Shown here in pieces: positions 2,068 through 9,303 of a DNA stretch of 9,303 bases. The notes below the pieces were generated by a model. That model was not told the origin of the DNA. It did not search any database and worked only from the letters and a program-made list of their open reading frames with translations. Source of the DNA: Candidatus Latescibacterota bacterium. Lineage in GTDB: Bacteria; Latescibacterota; UBA2968; UBA8231. The position numbers and the translations under genes were made by a program. Location: the NCBI GenBank assembly GCA_022825185.1, contig JAJDYK010000078.1:1-9303 (forward strand), in the 5' to 3' direction. The first letter of the stretch is position 1, and the number at the start of each line of letters is the position of its first letter.

Positions 2068-3738
2068 ATGACGCGGAGAAAATTTTTCGCTCTGTTGGTG
2101 TTTTTCGCCGGCATTAGCACTGTGTATGCCCTCGCTGAGCGGCAGGCGCAGAGAATGCAGGTGCCAGAGGCAGAGTTGAGTATCGACTGGGACGCGGTGG
2201 TTGACGACCCGGCAGAGCGGCTTGAGATCTCTTGGATGAGCATTCCGCGCTTTCCCACTGCGCGCGAGGGCACTTGGATCGAAGAGCGACTCGAAAAGCG
2301 GTTCAACGTCGATTTCAAGCCGCTGTTTACCAGTCATTTTGCCTATATGCGGCGCCGGCCGCTGGTCTTTGCTGGCGGCAATGTGCCCGATTTGTTCTAC
2401 GCCGGCGATCCAGTCGTGGTGCAAAAGGACGCCCACCACGGCTATGCGCTGCCCATTCCCTACGAGGTCATCCAAAAACACGCGCCCAACTACGTGCGCT
2501 ATCTCAACGAGTACGCGCCCTCGGCGTGGCTCTACGCCTACTGGAAGGGGGCCAACTACGGCATCCCCACTTGGGGGAGTAGCTTGGGCTATCCTGTGCC
2601 GGGGATCTGGCGGATGGACTGGCTGCGCAACGTCGGCATCGACAAGGTGCCGGAGACCCTCGACGAGATGTACACGGCGCTGTGGAAGTTTCGCCACGAG
2701 GACCCGGATGGCAATGGGATACAGGATACCTACGGCATGTGTCCCAATGCGCAGGCTTGGTTCAATGTTTTCGGCGCGGTCTTCGGGGCCTACGGGATTG
2801 TGCCGCACGGCTGGATGCTGCGCGATGGCGAGGTTGTGTGGGGCGGGACTCGGCCCGAGGCCAAAGAGATCCTGGGCCTTTTGCGCAAGTGGTACGTCGA
2901 TGGACTGATTGACCCCGACTTTGCGATTGGCCAAATCAAGAGCAGCCCAATACCCTACCAGAAATTCGTCAGCGGCAAGACGGGGTATCTCTTTAGCCAC
3001 GGCGGCTATAGCAGCTTTGACCAGTACAACAAGGCGTCATTGGTGTCGGTCATTGCCGAGTTGCAGCCGGGTGCCGAGGTGGTGGTTGGGCCGTTTCCGG
3101 CTGGCCCAGAAGGCATCCGTGGGGCGCGGGTGTGGAGCACAGCGGCCCATGTTTTTGTCTTTGGCAAGCAGGTAGCGGCCGCGCCTGAGAAGGTGGTGCG
3201 GATGCTCAAAATTTTTGAGGCGCTAGCGGTTGAGGAAAAACTCTTTGTGGAGGTGCGGATGGGCCAGCAGGGTGTGCATTGGGAGTTCGACGCCGAGCGC
3301 GGCCTGTACCATCTGCCGCCCTACGACGACCGCAACGTTGCCAGCAAGCATCTGACCGTGTTGAACGTCGATGGCCCGGGTGGGTTTTTTGCGCCCTGCG
3401 GGGTTCGGCCCGCCATTGCTGACAAGTACCTGCCAACGGCGATGCTGCAACACCGCGAGCGCTATCAGCGCACCGAGTGGGCGCAGGCTGGCCTGTTCGG
3501 CAAGCCGGACGTGGTGCCTTCGTCGATCAAGCACTTGCGCGATCTGCGCAATTTGCAGATGACGGTTTACGCCGAGATCATACGCGGCGAGCGAGATATC
3601 GACTATTTCGACGATTTCGTGGCCGAATGGACGGAACGGGGTGGAGCGGAGATGACCCAAGAGGCGCGGGAAATCTACAAGGTGCGCGAGGAGATTTACA
3701 GGAAGGTAGGGGTTGTGCAGAGATTTACAGGAAGGTAG
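2068..3738 (+). CDS. ABC-type extracellular solute-binding protein (family 1, LplA/YtcQ-like)
   Basis: The 556 residues match the large binding proteins of carbohydrate ABC importers, which capture a substrate outside the membrane and hand it to a permease. Residues 1-23 (MTRRKFFALL, then hydrophobic, ending YALA) are a Sec signal or N-terminal anchor; there is no lipobox cysteine. Family features include WIEERLEKRFNVDFK (70-84), the 'PDLFYAG' segment (107-113), YGIPTW (164-169), the WRMDWLRNVGI block (181-191) and the hallmark DPDGNGIQDTYG loop (212-223). The ATG is preceded only by a weak AGGG (2060-2063), immediately after the terminator. No permease or ATPase gene is in the window, so this is an orphan component here. 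The last five residues (RFTGR) arise from a 29-bp tandem duplication; without it the protein would end ...EIYRKVGVVQ at 551 residues. The gene converges with sulfatase A, with 21 nt between stops. Confidence 0.85.
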   Translation: MTRRKFFALLVFFAGISTVYALAERQAQRMQVPEAELSIDWDAVVDDPAERLEISWMSIPRFPTAREGTWIEERLEKRFNVDFKPLFTSHFAYMRRRPLVFAGGNVPDLFYAGDPVVVQKDAHHGYALPIPYEVIQKHAPNYVRYLNEYAPSAWLYAYWKGANYGIPTWGSSLGYPVPGIWRMDWLRNVGIDKVPETLDEMYTALWKFRHEDPDGNGIQDTYGMCPNAQAWFNVFGAVFGAYGIVPHGWMLRDGEVVWGGTRPEAKEILGLLRKWYVDGLIDPDFAIGQIKSSPIPYQKFVSGKTGYLFSHGGYSSFDQYNKASLVSVIAELQPGAEVVVGPFPAGPEGIRGARVWSTAAHVFVFGKQVAAAPEKVVRMLKIFEALAVEEKLFVEVRMGQQGVHWEFDAERGLYHLPPYDDRNVASKHLTVLNVDGPGGFFAPCGVRPAIADKYLPTAMLQHRERYQRTEWAQAGLFGKPDVVPSSIKHLRDLRNLQMTVYAEIIRGERDIDYFDDFVAEWTERGGAEMTQEAREIYKVREEIYRKVGVVQRFTGR

Positions 3739-3749
3739 GAGTAGTGCAG
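3692..3749 (+). repeat. 29-bp tandem duplication at the 3' end of the solute-binding-protein gene
   Basis: Unit 1 is 3692-3720 and unit 2 is 3721-3749, directly abutting. They match at 27 of 29 positions, differing at 3711/3740 (g/a) and 3714/3743 (t/a). In unit 1 the reading frame gives EIYRKVGVVQ. The same peptide is encoded by unit 2 in the +2-shifted frame and is followed at once by TAG (3750-3752). Because 29 is not a multiple of three, the current frame enters unit 2 out of phase and stops at 3736-3738. Both differences are synonymous in the EIYRKVGVVQ frame (Gly GGG/GGA, Val GTT/GTA). Confidence 0.9.
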
Positions 3750-3759
3750 TAGAGGCGTC

Positions 3760-5391
3760 CTAGATCATGTGGCCGTGCCGTCCTCGCATGTAGAAGGTGC
3801 CGTCCCGGTTCATACCGGGGAATTCCCACGTGTCGGGGTTGATGGGCCAGGGCAGGACATCGGCGCGGTCGGCCCACTCGCGGTAGCGCTGTTCCATTTT
3901 CCTAACCCTATCTTTTTCTCGCTCTGCTAGATCGTTGAGTTCAGTGCGATCTTCGTCCATATTGTAGAGCTCCCAGCCACCCTGACCGCTGGTTTCGCAG
4001 ACTAGTTTCCACGGTCCGATGCGGATGGCGGCATTGCCTTCGTGTTCCCAGTACATAGGCTTTTCGCGCGACCACTCGCGGCCTTTGAGGAGCGCGAGGA
4101 AGCTCTCGCCTTCAAGGGGGGTGATGGTGTGGCCGTCGTATTCGGTGGGATAGGAAGCGCCGGCTGCGTCGATGAGGGTGGCGGTGATGTCGATGATTTG
4201 GGCGGGAGCGTGCGCGAGGTCGGGTTGTGTGATAGTGGCCGGCCAGCGGACGATGCAGGGGGTGGCGATGCCGCCTTCGTGGACCCAGCGCTTGTAGCGG
4301 CGGAAGGGGGTGGTGCTGACATTGGCCCAAGGCACGTCGTAGCTCATGTACGTGTCCTCGGCTCCGGGCATCAGGCCGGGGATGTTGCCCATTTGCACGG
4401 GCCGCCCGTCGTGGGTGGTGAGACCTCGTAAAAAGGCCCGGTCGATGCGGTTGCCGTCCTCGCACAAGAATTCAGCGCAGCCGCCGTTGTCTGAGAGGAA
4501 AATGACCAACGTATTGTCCTCTAGGTCGAGTTCGCGGAGTTTGGCGAGGATGCGGCCGATGCCTTGGTCCATGCGATCGACTTGGGCGGCGTACACGGCC
4601 ATGCGCCGGTCTTCCCAGTCTGGGTCGGCCACTTCATGCCAAGGGGGTGCGTCCTCGTCGCGGGGCGATATGTCCCAGTGAGAGCTGACGACTTCCATGT
4701 CTTTGAGCGCTTCGTGGCGGGCGGTGCGCGCGGCGTCCCAGCCGCCTTGGCGGTACTGGCCTTGGTAGCGGGCGATGTCTTCCTCAAAGGCGTGGAGCGG
4801 CCAGTGCGGTGCTGTGTACGCGACGTACATGAAAAAGGGCTGGTCGGCGCTTGCGGAGATGAAGTCAACGGCGTGGTCGGAGATGGCGTCGGTGAGGTAG
4901 AAGTCGGTGGGATTGGCGGCGATAGGTTCGCCGTCGAGGGTGCAGGTGCGCCCGCCGAAGTAGCCGCTGTTTCTACCGAGGCCAAAGAGGCGGTCGAAGC
5001 CGTGCTGCATCTCGGGAGGGCTGTCGGCACTGTCGGGCCTTTTGCCGCAGTGCCACTTGCCCGACATTAGGGTGCGATAGCCGCGCTCCTTGAGTACTTG
5101 GGCGATGGTGACGGCTGAGTGGCGCAGGTAGCCGCCATAACCGGGGGCGTTGGGGATGCCGCCGGCCATGTGGCCGATGCCGGCTTGGTGCGGATAGAGG
5201 CCGGTCAGCAGGGCCGCACGCGAGGGACAGCAGCGGGCGAAGTTGTACATCTGCGAGAAGCGCAAGCCCTCGGCGGCGAGGCCGTCTAGGTTGGGGGTGC
5301 GGATTTCAGAGCCGTAGCAGCCGAGGTCGGAATAGCCCATGTCGTCGGCGAGGATGAGGACGATGTTGGGACGCTGGGAGGTGGTGGACAT
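3760..5391 (-). CDS. Sulfatase A, type I formylglycine-dependent, predicted cytoplasmic
   Basis: This 543-residue protein of the alkaline phosphatase-like superfamily hydrolyses a sulfate ester to an alcohol plus sulfate. The signature C54-C-P-S-R58 followed by AALLTG contains the cysteine converted to formylglycine. Other active-site elements are D16-D17 (RPNIVLILADDMGYSDLG), K112 and H114 (SGKWHCGK), H196 (TAPHWPLH), D301-N302 (FLSDNGG) and K367 with H371 (KRWVHEGG). The SDNGG and K-x3-HEGG blocks are typical of arylsulfatase-like S1 subfamilies; the substrate cannot be assigned. The C-terminal subdomain has GPWKLV and a Glu/Asp-rich tail. No signal peptide is visible. I chose the start at 5391 because AAGGAG lies 7 nt upstream; an in-frame ATG at 5421 would place that Shine-Dalgarno inside the coding region and has none of its own. 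It diverges from the PhyH gene and needs a maturation enzyme (FGE or anSME) from elsewhere. Confidence 0.92.
   Translation of the reverse strand: MSTTSQRPNIVLILADDMGYSDLGCYGSEIRTPNLDGLAAEGLRFSQMYNFARCCPSRAALLTGLYPHQAGIGHMAGGIPNAPGYGGYLRHSAVTIAQVLKERGYRTLMSGKWHCGKRPDSADSPPEMQHGFDRLFGLGRNSGYFGGRTCTLDGEPIAANPTDFYLTDAISDHAVDFISASADQPFFMYVAYTAPHWPLHAFEEDIARYQGQYRQGGWDAARTARHEALKDMEVVSSHWDISPRDEDAPPWHEVADPDWEDRRMAVYAAQVDRMDQGIGRILAKLRELDLEDNTLVIFLSDNGGCAEFLCEDGNRIDRAFLRGLTTHDGRPVQMGNIPGLMPGAEDTYMSYDVPWANVSTTPFRRYKRWVHEGGIATPCIVRWPATITQPDLAHAPAQIIDITATLIDAAGASYPTEYDGHTITPLEGESFLALLKGREWSREKPMYWEHEGNAAIRIGPWKLVCETSGQGGWELYNMDEDRTELNDLAEREKDRVRKMEQRYREWADRADVLPWPINPDTWEFPGMNRDGTFYMRGRHGHMI
5300..5336 (-). 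repeat. Sulfatase-derived 37-bp direct repeat, copy 1 (inside sulfatase A)
   Basis: This segment encodes residues about 19-31 of sulfatase A on the minus strand (GYSDLGCYGSEIR). It recurs in the same plus-strand orientation at 6401-6437 with a single mismatch (5308 a versus 6409 g), 1,101 bp away. The match ends abruptly on both sides. The mismatch is silent in the sulfatase frame (Ser TCT/TCC). Confidence 0.92.
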
Positions 5392-5398
5392 GAAGGGA

Positions 5399-5404
5399 CT
5401 CCTT
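5399..5404 (-). promoter_or_regulatory. Shine-Dalgarno AAGGAG that fixes the sulfatase A start
   Basis: On the minus strand AAGGAG (5404 to 5399) is 7 nt upstream of the ATG at 5391. The upstream in-frame ATG at 5421 is followed by this site within its own codons and is preceded only by AT-rich sequence, so it is disfavoured. Confidence 0.8.
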
Positions 5405-5412
5405 CTTTGCAA

Positions 5413-5437
5413 ATTAGGCATTAGACATTAGGAATTA
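5413..5437. repeat. Three tandem heptamers attagNN in the sulfatase A / PhyH divergent spacer
   Basis: The units are attaggc (5413-5419), attagac (5420-5426) and attagga (5427-5433), followed by a partial atta (5434-5437). They lie in the 73-bp AT-rich spacer between the divergent starts at 5391 and 5465, upstream of the sulfatase A Shine-Dalgarno. They could be low-complexity sequence or operator half-sites for a regulator acting on both genes; nothing else supports either reading. Confidence 0.5.
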
Positions 5438-5464
5438 AATTAATAATTCTCAAAAGGAAAGGAG

Positions 5465-6418
5465 ATGTTTGTGGCAACAGTTGATACTACAACGCATGGT
5501 TTGACTGCGGAAGAACGCGAAAAGTATGTAAAAGATGGGTTCTTTATTCGCGCAGATGCCTTCGACACTTATGAGATTGATGCACTGCGCGATAGAATCG
5601 AAGATCTCGTAGAACTCATTGAGACCTCTGACGTGTTGACAGAGAAAGAGAAGCAAGCAATTCTGAAACGCAATGCCGGAACTGATGCGACTTCTGGACC
5701 TGCATCGTTAAACAGTATAACGCGACTTCACAGATTCAGTGCATTGGTGCGATCACACATTCGCGACCCAAGGCGGCTGGATGCGGTCACAGAGATCGTA
5801 GGATCGGATCTGTTCTGTCCAAACGATCTGTATTTTTTTAAACCTCCGGGCACCGGGCGGCCTATTGCGTGGCATCAGGACTCGTGGTATTTCCGCAACA
5901 TTTATATCAGTAGCGTAGGAGACGCCATAGACCAATCGACGATTGGAACTTGGCTGGCGCTGGATGATGCGGACGAAGAGAACGGATGCTTGTGGGTGAT
6001 TCCCGGTAGTCATCGCTTAGGCGTGATAGATCACAGTCAGGTCGAGAGCGATGATTATTTGTTGCAAAAGAGAGTGACCGTGTCCGACGAGATGGAAGAA
6101 CGGGCCATGCCGGTAGAAGTACCAAAGGGCGCACTGGTGTTTTTCAACAATGCGCTATTGCACCGCAGCACACCCAACAGATCGGATCGGTTTCGGCGGG
6201 CCTATATCGTGCATTACATGAAAGCGACAATCCAGCATACCGGAAACAGACCAAGGATTCCCGAGGGCACAGAGCACTGGGGCACTCCTGAGATGTACAT
6301 CTGCGGACGACAATTGCCTGGGTGCGTGCAAACAACGCTTGAGAAAGACAGCATGGACTGGGCCAGAGCATTGGAACGGACATTGACGGAAGACGACATT
6401 CGGATTTCGGAGCCGTAG
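5465..6418 (+). CDS. PhyH-family (phytanoyl-CoA dioxygenase-like) Fe(II)/2-oxoglutarate oxygenase
   Basis: This 317-residue protein of the PhyH superfamily couples 2-oxoglutarate decarboxylation to hydroxylation of a small molecule. The iron ligands are visible: H137 and D139 in WHQDSWYF, and H233 in LLHRSTPN. R244, 11 residues after H233 as in human phytanoyl-CoA hydroxylase, should bind 2-oxoglutarate. The jelly-roll core also shows FFKPPGTGRPIAWHQD, TWLALDDADEENGCLWVIPGSH and RRAYIVHY. The N-terminus is typical (EEREKYVKDGFFI). Bacterial members act on varied substrates, so true phytanoyl-CoA activity is not implied. The ATG at 5465 has AAGGA 6 nt upstream; a GTG at 5471, 6 nt after AAAGGAG, is a possible alternative costing two residues. 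Residues 313-317 and the stop codon come from a sulfatase-derived fragment, so the native C-terminus may be lost. The gene is less GC-rich than sulfatases A and B, and sulfatase B follows by 33 bp. Confidence 0.92.
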   Translation: MFVATVDTTTHGLTAEEREKYVKDGFFIRADAFDTYEIDALRDRIEDLVELIETSDVLTEKEKQAILKRNAGTDATSGPASLNSITRLHRFSALVRSHIRDPRRLDAVTEIVGSDLFCPNDLYFFKPPGTGRPIAWHQDSWYFRNIYISSVGDAIDQSTIGTWLALDDADEENGCLWVIPGSHRLGVIDHSQVESDDYLLQKRVTVSDEMEERAMPVEVPKGALVFFNNALLHRSTPNRSDRFRRAYIVHYMKATIQHTGNRPRIPEGTEHWGTPEMYICGRQLPGCVQTTLEKDSMDWARALERTLTEDDIRISEP

Positions 6419-6437
6419 CAGCCGAGGTCGGAATAGC
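6401..6437 (+). repeat. Sulfatase-derived 37-bp direct repeat, copy 2 (PhyH stop region): rearrangement scar
   Basis: This is identical to 5300-5336 except at 6409. Read on the minus strand it encodes the conserved GYSDLGCYGSEIR stretch of a sulfatase N-terminus. Here it supplies the last five PhyH codons (R-I-S-E-P), the TAG at 6416-6418 and 19 nt of spacer, ending 14 nt before the ATG of sulfatase B. It has no coding continuity on its own strand, so it is a scrap of a sulfatase gene and not a functional gene. Confidence 0.9.
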
Positions 6438-6441
6438 AATT

Positions 6442-6447
6442 GAGGTG
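6442..6447 (+). promoter_or_regulatory. Shine-Dalgarno GAGGTG that fixes the sulfatase B start
   Basis: GAGG (6442-6445) is 6 nt upstream of the ATG at 6452. An in-frame TTG at 6440 would overlap this site and add only MRCQ before the fold, so the ATG is preferred. Confidence 0.75.
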
Positions 6448-6451
6448 TCAA

Positions 6452-7891
6452 ATGAATGTACTGCACATCTTATCCGATCAGCACCAAGCGGCCTGTATGG
6501 GCTGCGAAGGCCACGAGCAGGCGCTGACGCCCAACATGGATCGGCTGGCCCGCGAGGGGATGCGCTTTTCAGCGGCGTACACCCAGAATCCGATCTGCAC
6601 GCCCAGCCGCATGAGCATGTACACGGGACAGTACTGCCACAACCACGGTTTCTTCGGTTTGGGTGGACCGCGCCCAGAGGGAATGCAGAGTTTTCTCGGC
6701 CATTTTAAGCAGCACGGGTACAAGACGGCGGTGATCGGCAAGACGCACGTGCCCAACCAACCGCGCGACTGGCTGTTGGATCACGTTGACTACTGGATGT
6801 CTGGCACCTCGCCGCCGGTGCCGGGTGCGGGTGGTCTGTCGCCGTATCAAACATTTTTGGCCGGTGCCGGTCTGTTGGAGCAAAACGACAACTTCCGCAT
6901 CACCGGCTACCCGGCTCTTCACCCCGTTGGTTTGCCGCAGAACCAGTTTCGTGCCCGGCCATCGGAGTTGCCACTGGAGTACAATGTCGAGAGTTGGTGC
7001 GTGGATCGGGCGATTGAATTTATGGAGGGATGTGAGGGAGATCCCTTCTGTATGCAGGTATCATTGCCGCGACCGCACGCGCCCTATACGCCGGATCGGA
7101 AGTTCTGGGATATGTACGCAGACGACATTGCGTTGCCGGAGACCTATTATCAAGACCCGTCGGGACGCCCGCCGCATTTCCGCGATATGCACGCGCGGTT
7201 TCAGCGAGCTTGGGAGGAGGAGGAATGGTCGCCGGAGGAGGGGGCACGGAACATCTGGCGCGGCTATCTGGGCTGTGTGACTCAGGTTGACTACTGTATT
7301 GGCCGTCTGCTGGACTACCTCGACGAACGCGGCTTGGCTGAAGATACGATTGTCGTCTATAATTCCGACCACGGCGCGTACAGCACTGCTTTTGGCATTC
7401 AGGAGAAGGCCCCTGGGATATGTTCGGAGGCGGTGTGTCGGGTGCCGATGCTCTGGCGGGTGCCGGGTGTTGTGGTCGAGGGGAGGGTTTGCGATGCGTT
7501 GGTGGAAAATGTCGATTTGGCCCCGACGTTTATGAACCTCTGCGGGTTGCCGGCGATGGAGGGTATGAATGGGGTAGATGTCAGCGAACTTTTGCGGGGT
7601 GGGACCGATCCGGTGCGTGAGGTGGCGGTCACTGAGCATCGGCACAGCAAGGCGCTGCGCTGGGGTAAGTGGCGCTATGTACACTATCAGCCGGAGGATT
7701 TCGGGGGCGACTGCGGCGAGCTCTATGACTTGGAGGCCGATCCGCACGAGGCTCGCAATTTGTACGGCGAGCAGGCATATCAAGAGATCGTCGAGCAGTG
7801 CGAGAAACTCCTGTGCCACTGGCTGATCTCGACGCGGCAGTATCGCACGGCGTTTTCAGTAGGGGCGTGGAATGAGACTAACTACGTCTGA
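6452..7891 (+). CDS. Sulfatase B, type I formylglycine-dependent, predicted cytoplasmic
   Basis: This is a 479-residue sulfatase beginning straight at the first beta-strand (MNVLHILSDQHQ) with no signal peptide. The maturation signature is C49-T-P-S-R53, followed by MSMYTGQYCHNHG. The first metal site reads D9-Q10 in place of Asp-Asp, the pattern of the 'SDQ' group that includes choline-sulfatase-like and related enzymes. K97 and H99 (IGKTHVP), the PHAPY block and D306-H307 (YNSDHGAY) complete the active site. The segment EKAPGICSEAVCRVPMLWR should carry the distal lysine. The C-terminus has the family ending RWGKWRYVHY ... LYDLEADPHEARNL. Its short length and SDQ/SDH motifs separate it from sulfatase A, so the two probably have different substrates. 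It lies 33 bp after PhyH with no terminator between, suggesting one operon. Its base composition is more GC-rich than either flanking plus-strand gene. Confidence 0.92.
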   Translation: MNVLHILSDQHQAACMGCEGHEQALTPNMDRLAREGMRFSAAYTQNPICTPSRMSMYTGQYCHNHGFFGLGGPRPEGMQSFLGHFKQHGYKTAVIGKTHVPNQPRDWLLDHVDYWMSGTSPPVPGAGGLSPYQTFLAGAGLLEQNDNFRITGYPALHPVGLPQNQFRARPSELPLEYNVESWCVDRAIEFMEGCEGDPFCMQVSLPRPHAPYTPDRKFWDMYADDIALPETYYQDPSGRPPHFRDMHARFQRAWEEEEWSPEEGARNIWRGYLGCVTQVDYCIGRLLDYLDERGLAEDTIVVYNSDHGAYSTAFGIQEKAPGICSEAVCRVPMLWRVPGVVVEGRVCDALVENVDLAPTFMNLCGLPAMEGMNGVDVSELLRGGTDPVREVAVTEHRHSKALRWGKWRYVHYQPEDFGGDCGELYDLEADPHEARNLYGEQAYQEIVEQCEKLLCHWLISTRQYRTAFSVGAWNETNYV

Positions 7892-7981: not shown

Positions 7982-9303
7982 ATGGCAGATAAACGCCCCA
8001 ATATTCTGTATATCATGACCGATGACCATGGCACGGGAGCCTTGAGTTGCTATGGCAGTCAGATTAACCACACCCCTAATATGGATCGAATTGCCCATAG
8101 TGGAATGCGTCTGGACAATTGTTATGTGACCTATTCTCTGTGTTCGCCCAGCCGCGCATCCATATTGACTGGGAAATACGCACATCTCCACGGACAGACA
8201 TCAATTGGGGGGAATATTTTTGACGGCTCGCAGCAAACATTCCCCGGTCTATTGCAGGAAGCGGGATATCAGACCGCGATTATTGGAAAATGGCACCTGC
8301 ACAGCATGCCAACAGGCTTTGATCACTATAGCGTAATGTGGGGACAAGGTTCTTATTTTGATCCCAAATTTATCGAACCCAGCGAACATGGCCCTGTGTG
8401 GAAAGAAAGTCAGGGATATTCTACAGATCTGGTAACTGACAAATGCCTAGATTGGCTCAAAGGACGAGATTCCGAGAAGCCCTTTATGCTCCTGTGCCAT
8501 TTTAAGTCGCCCCATTACAACTGGGAGCCGGATGAAAAACACAAAGCCATGTTCGAGGATGAAACCATTCCCGAACCAGAGACGTTTGATCACGATTTCG
8601 GAGACAGTCCAGTTCCGCCCGAGGCGCTGCAAGTCAAGCTGGAAACAGTACATGAACAGTGGAATATTACGCACTGGGATGCGATGCCCGAAGGATTGTC
8701 TATGCAGGATCAGAAACACAGGAACTACCAGTACTTTATAAAAGATTACCTCCGTTGTGTGGCCGCGGTAGATGATAATATTGGTCGGCTGCTCGACTAT
8801 CTAGACGAACAGGGCTTGGCCGAAAATACGATTGTGGTATATACCTCAGACAACGGGATGTTTCAGGGTGAACATGGCTGGGTCGATAAAAAAATGATGT
8901 ATGAGGAGAGCCTGCGGGTTCCATTTTTGATCCGATATCCCAGAGAAATTGAAGCGGGATCCCATACAAATGACATGGTGATTAATCTCGACTATGCACC
9001 GACCTTTTTGGAATACGCCGGGCAGCCTATTCCCGCAGACATCCAAGGAAGAAGTCTCGTGTCGCTTCTGGGAGGACACACGCCGGATGATTGGCGAACT
9101 GCGTTTTACTATCAGCACTTTGATATCCAGCCAGATGGCGAATTGGCCAACTGCGGCGTGCGGACCAAAAATTTCAAATTGATCTGGTACAACCACAACT
9201 ACGACCATTACCAGCTTTTCGATTTGGAAGCAGACCCCAGCGAGACACGAGATGTATCGGAAGATCCCGAATACGCCCCAACAGTATCCTACATGAAAGT
9301 CTT
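7982..9303 (+). CDS. Sulfatase C, GlcNAc-6-sulfatase / mucin-desulfating-like, C-terminus cut by window edge
   Basis: The frame is open from ATG 7982 (GAGGAG at 7971-7976, 5 nt spacing) to the window end: 440 complete codons plus two bases. There is no signal peptide (MADKRPNILYIMTDDHG). The signature is C54-S-P-S-R58, then ASILTG. Other active-site elements are D14-D15, K103 and H105 (IGKWHLH), the KSPHYNW block and D290-N291 (TSDNGMFQGEHGW). The run DNGMFQGEHGWVDKKMMYEE, followed by LRVPFLIR, and the later DDWRTAFYYQH resemble N-acetylglucosamine-6-sulfatase and mucin-desulfating sulfatases; this is a family-level assignment. The C-terminal LFDLEADPSETRDV element is present, so only a short tail should be missing. 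Codons end in A or T far more often than in sulfatases A and B, suggesting a different origin. Confidence 0.9.
   Translation, partial: MADKRPNILYIMTDDHGTGALSCYGSQINHTPNMDRIAHSGMRLDNCYVTYSLCSPSRASILTGKYAHLHGQTSIGGNIFDGSQQTFPGLLQEAGYQTAIIGKWHLHSMPTGFDHYSVMWGQGSYFDPKFIEPSEHGPVWKESQGYSTDLVTDKCLDWLKGRDSEKPFMLLCHFKSPHYNWEPDEKHKAMFEDETIPEPETFDHDFGDSPVPPEALQVKLETVHEQWNITHWDAMPEGLSMQDQKHRNYQYFIKDYLRCVAAVDDNIGRLLDYLDEQGLAENTIVVYTSDNGMFQGEHGWVDKKMMYEESLRVPFLIRYPREIEAGSHTNDMVINLDYAPTFLEYAGQPIPADIQGRSLVSLLGGHTPDDWRTAFYYQHFDIQPDGELANCGVRTKNFKLIWYNHNYDHYQLFDLEADPSETRDVSEDPEYAPTVSYMKV

Follow-up and report, generated by a model that had tools for sequence, protein, structure and literature searches.

The stretch at positions 6401–6437 of the DNA analysed here (the window, 9,303 nucleotides of a Candidatus Latescibacterota contig) is probably a recombination scar that has no function of its own, left when a foreign gene encoding a PhyH-family dioxygenase (PhyH) was placed between the sulfatase genes sulfA and sulfB (Table 1). 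The larger part of this stretch is a fragment of sulfA in antisense, and the role seen for it is that it terminates PhyH and spaces PhyH from sulfB.

Table 1
Features of the window, listed from left to right; HTH/ParE TA denotes a toxin–antitoxin pair and SBP a solute-binding protein.
Feature	Position	Strand	Remarks
FG-GAP/TPR protein gene	leftmost in the window	-	
Open reading frame without assigned family	between the FG-GAP/TPR and SBP genes		
SBP gene	between the open reading frame without assigned family and sulfA		
Sulfatase A (sulfA)	3760..5421	-	Pfam Sulfatase PF00884, 1.7e-62
Source of the fragment: sulfA 5' coding end, antisense on the plus strand	5300..5336	+	36/37 match
AT-rich sulfA–PhyH spacer	5422..5464	+	25.6% GC; in G004 and G005 the site of the HTH/ParE TA pair
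PhyH-family dioxygenase (PhyH)	5465..6418	+	Pfam PhyH, 5.4e-39; GC 50.5% over 5465–6400
PhyH 3' coding end CGGATTTCGG (R-I-S)	6401..6410	+	probably native; microhomologous to sulfA; likely crossover
Fragment proper AGCCGTAGCAGCCGAGGTCGGAATAGC (sulfA 5' coding end in antisense)	6411..6437	+	identical to 5310–5336
PhyH stop codon	6416–6418	+	inside 6411..6437
sulfB leader	6438..6451	+	GAGGTG Shine–Dalgarno-like stretch, judged by eye
Sulfatase B (sulfB)	6452..7891	+	Pfam Sulfatase, 2e-45
Sulfatase C (sulfC)	7982..9303, extending past the window end	+	Pfam Sulfatase, 1.3e-58; 48% GC

The repeat and its source

Positions 5300–5336 and 6401–6437 form a direct repeat with sharp edges, in which 36 of 37 bases are the same and the sole mismatch is an A at 5308 against a G at 6409. 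Exact direct repeats in the window reach 28 nt at most, compared with a maximum of 16 nt in 200 first-order Markov shuffles. When all 310,312 27-base words from both strands of nine related loci (including two re-fetches, of the L003 and L005 regions) were compared with 6411–6437, 15 matched at 22 or more of the 27 positions, and all 15 belong to the sulfA site or to the DNA immediately following PhyH. On the plus strand, 5300–5336 is the antisense of the N-terminal sulfA motif GYSDLGCYGSEIR. Both the sulfatase match and its antisense N-terminal origin, as put forward in the original prediction, are thus borne out at a level far above chance, and the fragment does hold the stop codon of PhyH and most of the PhyH–sulfB spacer.

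The source of the fragment is sulfA. In a search of 16 genomes, the 66-nt version from G001 matched sulfA of G001–G006 with 110–114 bits and 98–100% identity over 63 nt, whereas the best listed site outside sulfA and the scars reached 56 bits (83% over 53 nt). Higher identities at other sites span at most 30 nt among the listed matches, which contain no source gene better than sulfA in these 16 genomes. The single mismatch had been taken as a sign that the fragment came from a once-functional sulfatase paralogue. Of the seven sulfA rows compared, five have A at the corresponding base and two (G003 and G006) have G; at the probable crossover stretch sulfA reads CGGATTTCAG, and in G003 and G006 it reads CGGATTTCGG. 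The G of the fragment could equally be a native PhyH base, as found in G009. With the mismatch base present in two of seven sulfA genes and possibly native to PhyH, no lost paralogue is needed, and this part of the prediction is not supported.

The C-terminus of PhyH

The first 8–10 nt of the repeat are likely to be native PhyH sequence and to have formed the microhomology at the join, since the PhyH gene of G009, a genome without the fragment, already reads CGGATTTCGG at its end. This end shares 8 nt with sulfA of the window and 10 nt with sulfA of G003 and G006, although the donor may differ. The PhyH end of G010 reads CGGATT and shares 6 nt with sulfA at the same place; in G008, G011, G012 and L013 at most 6 nt are common with sulfA, elsewhere in the end region.

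Among 41 aligned PhyH proteins, 34 carry R-I or R-V at the end, mostly with other tails, which indicates a native origin for R and I and probably also for S; together with the G009 end, this makes the proposal that the fragment supplied all five of the last PhyH residues too strong. In the simplest reading the E, the P and the stop codon are derived from the fragment. More of the tail may be native, given relatives that end in RVSEP (P0008, P0009 and P0012), RVSGP (P0011), RVSLP (P0013) or RVSGAC (P0015); P0008, P0009 and P0011–P0013 belong to the PhyH group of the window (support 86/86), and P0015 lies outside it. The homologue alignment that had been suggested for locating the native C-terminus places R, I and probably S on the native side, with E and P possibly native as well.

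Distribution in related genomes

A scan of genome contigs with PhyH retained 80 loci. The first 12 (L001–L012; PhyH identity 83–98%) are titled Latescibacterota or Latescibacteria, except for L003, L004 and L006, which are titled Gemmatimonadetes or Gemmatimonadota. At an E-value of 1e-80 or better, PhyH was found in 15 of 47 genomes of the class; a set of 64 genomes of the phylum added no carrier to these 15 and contained no DNA for the RVSEP, RVSGP, RVSLP and RVSGAC proteins. DNA resembling sulfA lies directly behind PhyH in seven of the 15 (G001–G007), so that the PhyH–sulfatase junctions sought in relatives are present in seven other genomes. It is absent from the remaining eight (G008–G012, G024, G027 and G028), in which PhyH has other ends and sulfC follows at most 200 nt downstream of PhyH; distant PhyH genes do not, then, uniformly end in RISEP with the same downstream DNA.

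Over the 37 positions, the number of matches to the sulfA site of the window is 35 in G001, 30 in G002, 36 in G003, 31 in G004, 34 in G005, 36 in G006 (the junction of which was read from two contigs, L006 and L085) and 30 in G007. Two types of junction can be distinguished. One, found in the window, G001, G003, G005 and G006, has a long fragment and no TA pair to its right. In the four genomes the sulfA-like stretch extends over about 63–64 nt and ends at GACTAGAGAGCC, with one extra base within the scar in G003 and G005 and two in G006, and the window is without 37 nt (counted by eye) that G001 has between AATAGC of the fragment and the sulfB leader. The other type, in G002, G004 and G007, combines a shorter, diverged fragment (22 of 27 matches over 6411–6437) with the TA pair. 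Positions 9–31 of these diverged copies match sulfA better than all of 5000 letter shuffles. A full sulfA 5' end reaching to the start codon behind PhyH in these three genomes appeared plausible by eye but is not claimed: 161 (G002), 281 (G004) and 547 (G007) of 5000 shuffles matched the sulfA start as well as the stretch past the motif did, which is not significant. The two types do not follow the PhyH tree or the rpoB tree, the latter constructed without G006 (gene split over contigs) and without the window, which has no rpoB. In L005 (G005), sulfA at 5595–7236 is read in two frames with a break near residue 194 that is due either to a frameshift or to faulty assembly.

Probable horizontal acquisition of PhyH

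PhyH was probably acquired horizontally from another Latescibacterota clade, to judge from sequence comparison. It appears foreign because PhyH of G001 is 82–83% identical to that of five compared genomes with the PhyH–sulfC arrangement, while the rpoB identity of G001 to the eight genomes of this arrangement is 64–66%. The GC content of PhyH (50.5%) compares with 63.2% and 59.4% for the flanking genes and is close to the 51–54.5% of PhyH in the five PhyH–sulfC genomes. In G034, the rpoB of which is 90.8% identical to that of G001, the SBP gene is followed by a sulfA stump and then by sulfB, and PhyH was not found at the threshold applied; sulfA has been deleted to a stump in this genome, and PhyH was possibly lost there instead of never having been present, so that the locus is no more than a candidate for the empty site. 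G007 has PhyH, the fragment and the TA pair, with a sulfA stump only (by eye) and no sulfB at the threshold used. The foreign character of PhyH and the sulfA stump–sulfB arrangement without PhyH in G034 make past recombination, and more specifically the insertion of a PhyH segment between sulfatase genes as envisaged in the original prediction, the best fit to the locus.

A search for a carrier of PhyH produced no blastn match in 72,556 plasmid records, and the 32 pattern-matched stretches in viral contigs encode no PhyH relative. No transposase family was detected by Pfam in the seven window open reading frames scanned, and inverted-repeat pairs of at least 20 nt are not listed at the PhyH borders in the window. 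In the lone inverted pair that touches the direct repeat (I1/I3), the second arm falls within sulfB, and the direct repeat flanking PhyH is sulfA coding DNA. The low-GC gene sulfC is located after sulfB in G001, G005 and the window but comes after PhyH in the other clade; sulfC and PhyH may therefore have arrived together.

The toxin–antitoxin pair and a possible route of insertion

In G002, G004 and G007 the fragment is followed by genes for an HTH antitoxin-like protein and a ParE-family toxin on the minus strand. The order in G004 is sulfA 5' end, HTH/ParE pair, PhyH, fragment, HTH/ParE pair and sulfB. The two G004 copies can be aligned from the sulfA motif as far as CTTATGAA, the TA genes included, and show 98.9% identity over about 640 nt; G004 is the sole genome with both copies, and their near-identical cores could be a short-read assembly problem. 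The presence of the pair on both sides of PhyH, each time beside sulfA 5' sequence, suggests a local duplication of a unit comprising the sulfA 5' end and the TA pair as the place where PhyH entered. The ParE gene (E-value of 1e-20 or better) occurs in five copies in four of the 47 genomes, all of them at this locus, so within this set the pair does not appear to be a roaming element. The HTH gene occurs in seven copies in six of the 47 genomes, two of them away from the locus, in G001 and G045. The pair lies at approximately 1236–1990 and 2990–3744 in L004 (G004), at approximately 7238–7990 in L005 and behind PhyH in L002 and L007.

The following course of events would account for these arrangements. 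PhyH from the other clade, there followed by sulfC, would have entered the space between sulfA and sulfB, which are divergently oriented, with its downstream join at a place where the native PhyH end (resembling CGGATTTCGG) is similar to the antisense sulfA 5' end (CGGATTTC[A/G]GAGCC); the crossover would then lie at CGGATTTC. As a result of the join, a direct duplicate of the sulfA 5' sequence, at least 54–64 nt long, would have remained behind PhyH and supplied the PhyH stop codon. In the simplest form of this scheme, the sulfA 5' end and the adjacent TA pair would have undergone a local tandem duplication and PhyH would have been captured at the duplication junction, either by template switching at the microhomology or by an equivalent illegitimate recombination. 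Lineage-specific deletions, presumably later than the capture, could then have trimmed the scar, leaving 37 nt in the window. Since the junction types cross the trees and the match to the sulfA start behind the short fragment is not significant, confidence in the scar interpretation is moderate. A broader proposal is that the locus is a gene-capture hot spot of the Latescibacterota, at which template switching at the repeated unit brings foreign genes into the sulfatase cluster and the antisense DNA of a neighbour provides each captured gene with its stop codon and its downstream operon partner; this is offered as a speculation with a modest chance of being correct.

An origin of the sulfB leader from the left border of the TA pair (TCAAATGA joined to ATG) was noticed by eye and is not claimed. 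At approximately 7850–7990 of L002, a palindromic insertion with the ends CTGATGTTACGCAT and ATGCGTAACGTCAG separates sulfA from PhyH; it has TTAATAA on both flanks and, by eye, resembles a miniature transposable element.

Alternative explanations

Short patches of illegitimate recombination are known in bacteria, and a single-stranded sulfA fragment of about 60 nt could have been pasted behind a resident PhyH by microhomologies at both ends, with neither a TA duplication nor any link to the arrival of PhyH. The shortness of the patch, a left edge that falls within a microhomology of 8–10 nt and the lack of a transposase family in the seven open reading frames scanned are all consistent with such an event. 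It would, however, leave unexplained why both of the TA copies that flank PhyH in G004 are next to sulfA 5' sequence and why the source is an adjacent gene in direct orientation, and is for these reasons considered unlikely. The deletion of a second minus-strand sulfatase paralogue next to sulfB, with its 5' tip left behind, would agree with the orientation and position of the fragment. This is improbable given that the long G001 fragment matches sulfA of G001–G006 far better than it does the other listed sites outside scars and that two of the seven sulfA genes have the mismatch base. Relatives of sulfB are present in nine of the 47 class genomes (seven at 93–97% identity and two at 70%), and no second minus-strand sulfatase lies directly before sulfB in any of these nine, over the 0.7–8 kb upstream.

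Selection on the stretch, for example for a PhyH–sulfB transcript antisense to the sulfA mRNA, could explain its near identity to sulfA in G001 and the window, where it does not code for a sulfatase. The window gave no Rfam match at gathering scores and contains no tRNA, and the stretch varies in both length and sequence (22 of 27 matches in G002, G004 and G007; one or two extra bases in G003, G005 and G006), making a selected function very improbable. An assembly chimera or a collapsed repeat would be compatible with the observation that the exact 37-nt form of the window, with its further loss of 37 nt, occurs in no other locus examined. An error of this kind is the least probable of the explanations considered, as the junction of PhyH with the fragment recurs in seven other genomes, in G005 on a contig of 6.27 Mb.

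Relationship to known systems

Deletions in bacterial gene clusters can leave gene relics. The present fragment is similar to these in being a short, unread piece of a gene between intact genes and differs from them in that the full source gene persists 1.1 kb away and the relic supplies the stop codon of another gene. The recombination proposed here has parallels in microhomology-mediated template switching with duplication in starving Escherichia coli (MMBIR or long-distance template switch; PMC3161906), which is characterized by duplication of local sequence, by a short microhomology where the new junction forms and by insertion of nearby sequence at complex junctions, features that the scheme proposed here would share. 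In contrast to the E. coli events, those at the present locus are deduced from relics, involve a foreign gene and have been reworked by deletions at the junction. The homology-facilitated and double illegitimate recombination of Acinetobacter baylyi (see PMC8116780) is similar in that short stretches of homology guide the integration of DNA, whereas the patch in the present case is intragenomic. No description of a junction between PhyH and a sulfA fragment was found in the portions of the open-licence literature available.

The fragment is best regarded as an ordinary recombination scar of unusual clarity. If this is correct, the locus provides a case in which a foreign gene was stitched into a host cluster through a few similar bases and obtained its stop codon from the antisense strand of a neighbour, with apparent intermediates of the process still visible in related genomes. 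It also suggests caution before functional signals are read into the repeat or into the final residues that such genes encode.

A separate 29-nt tandem duplication, noted by eye at positions 3691–3748 of the window, lengthens the 3' end of the SBP gene. It is absent from G007 and G034, the G004 contig stops short of it, and it is also found in G001, G002, G003, G005 and G006.
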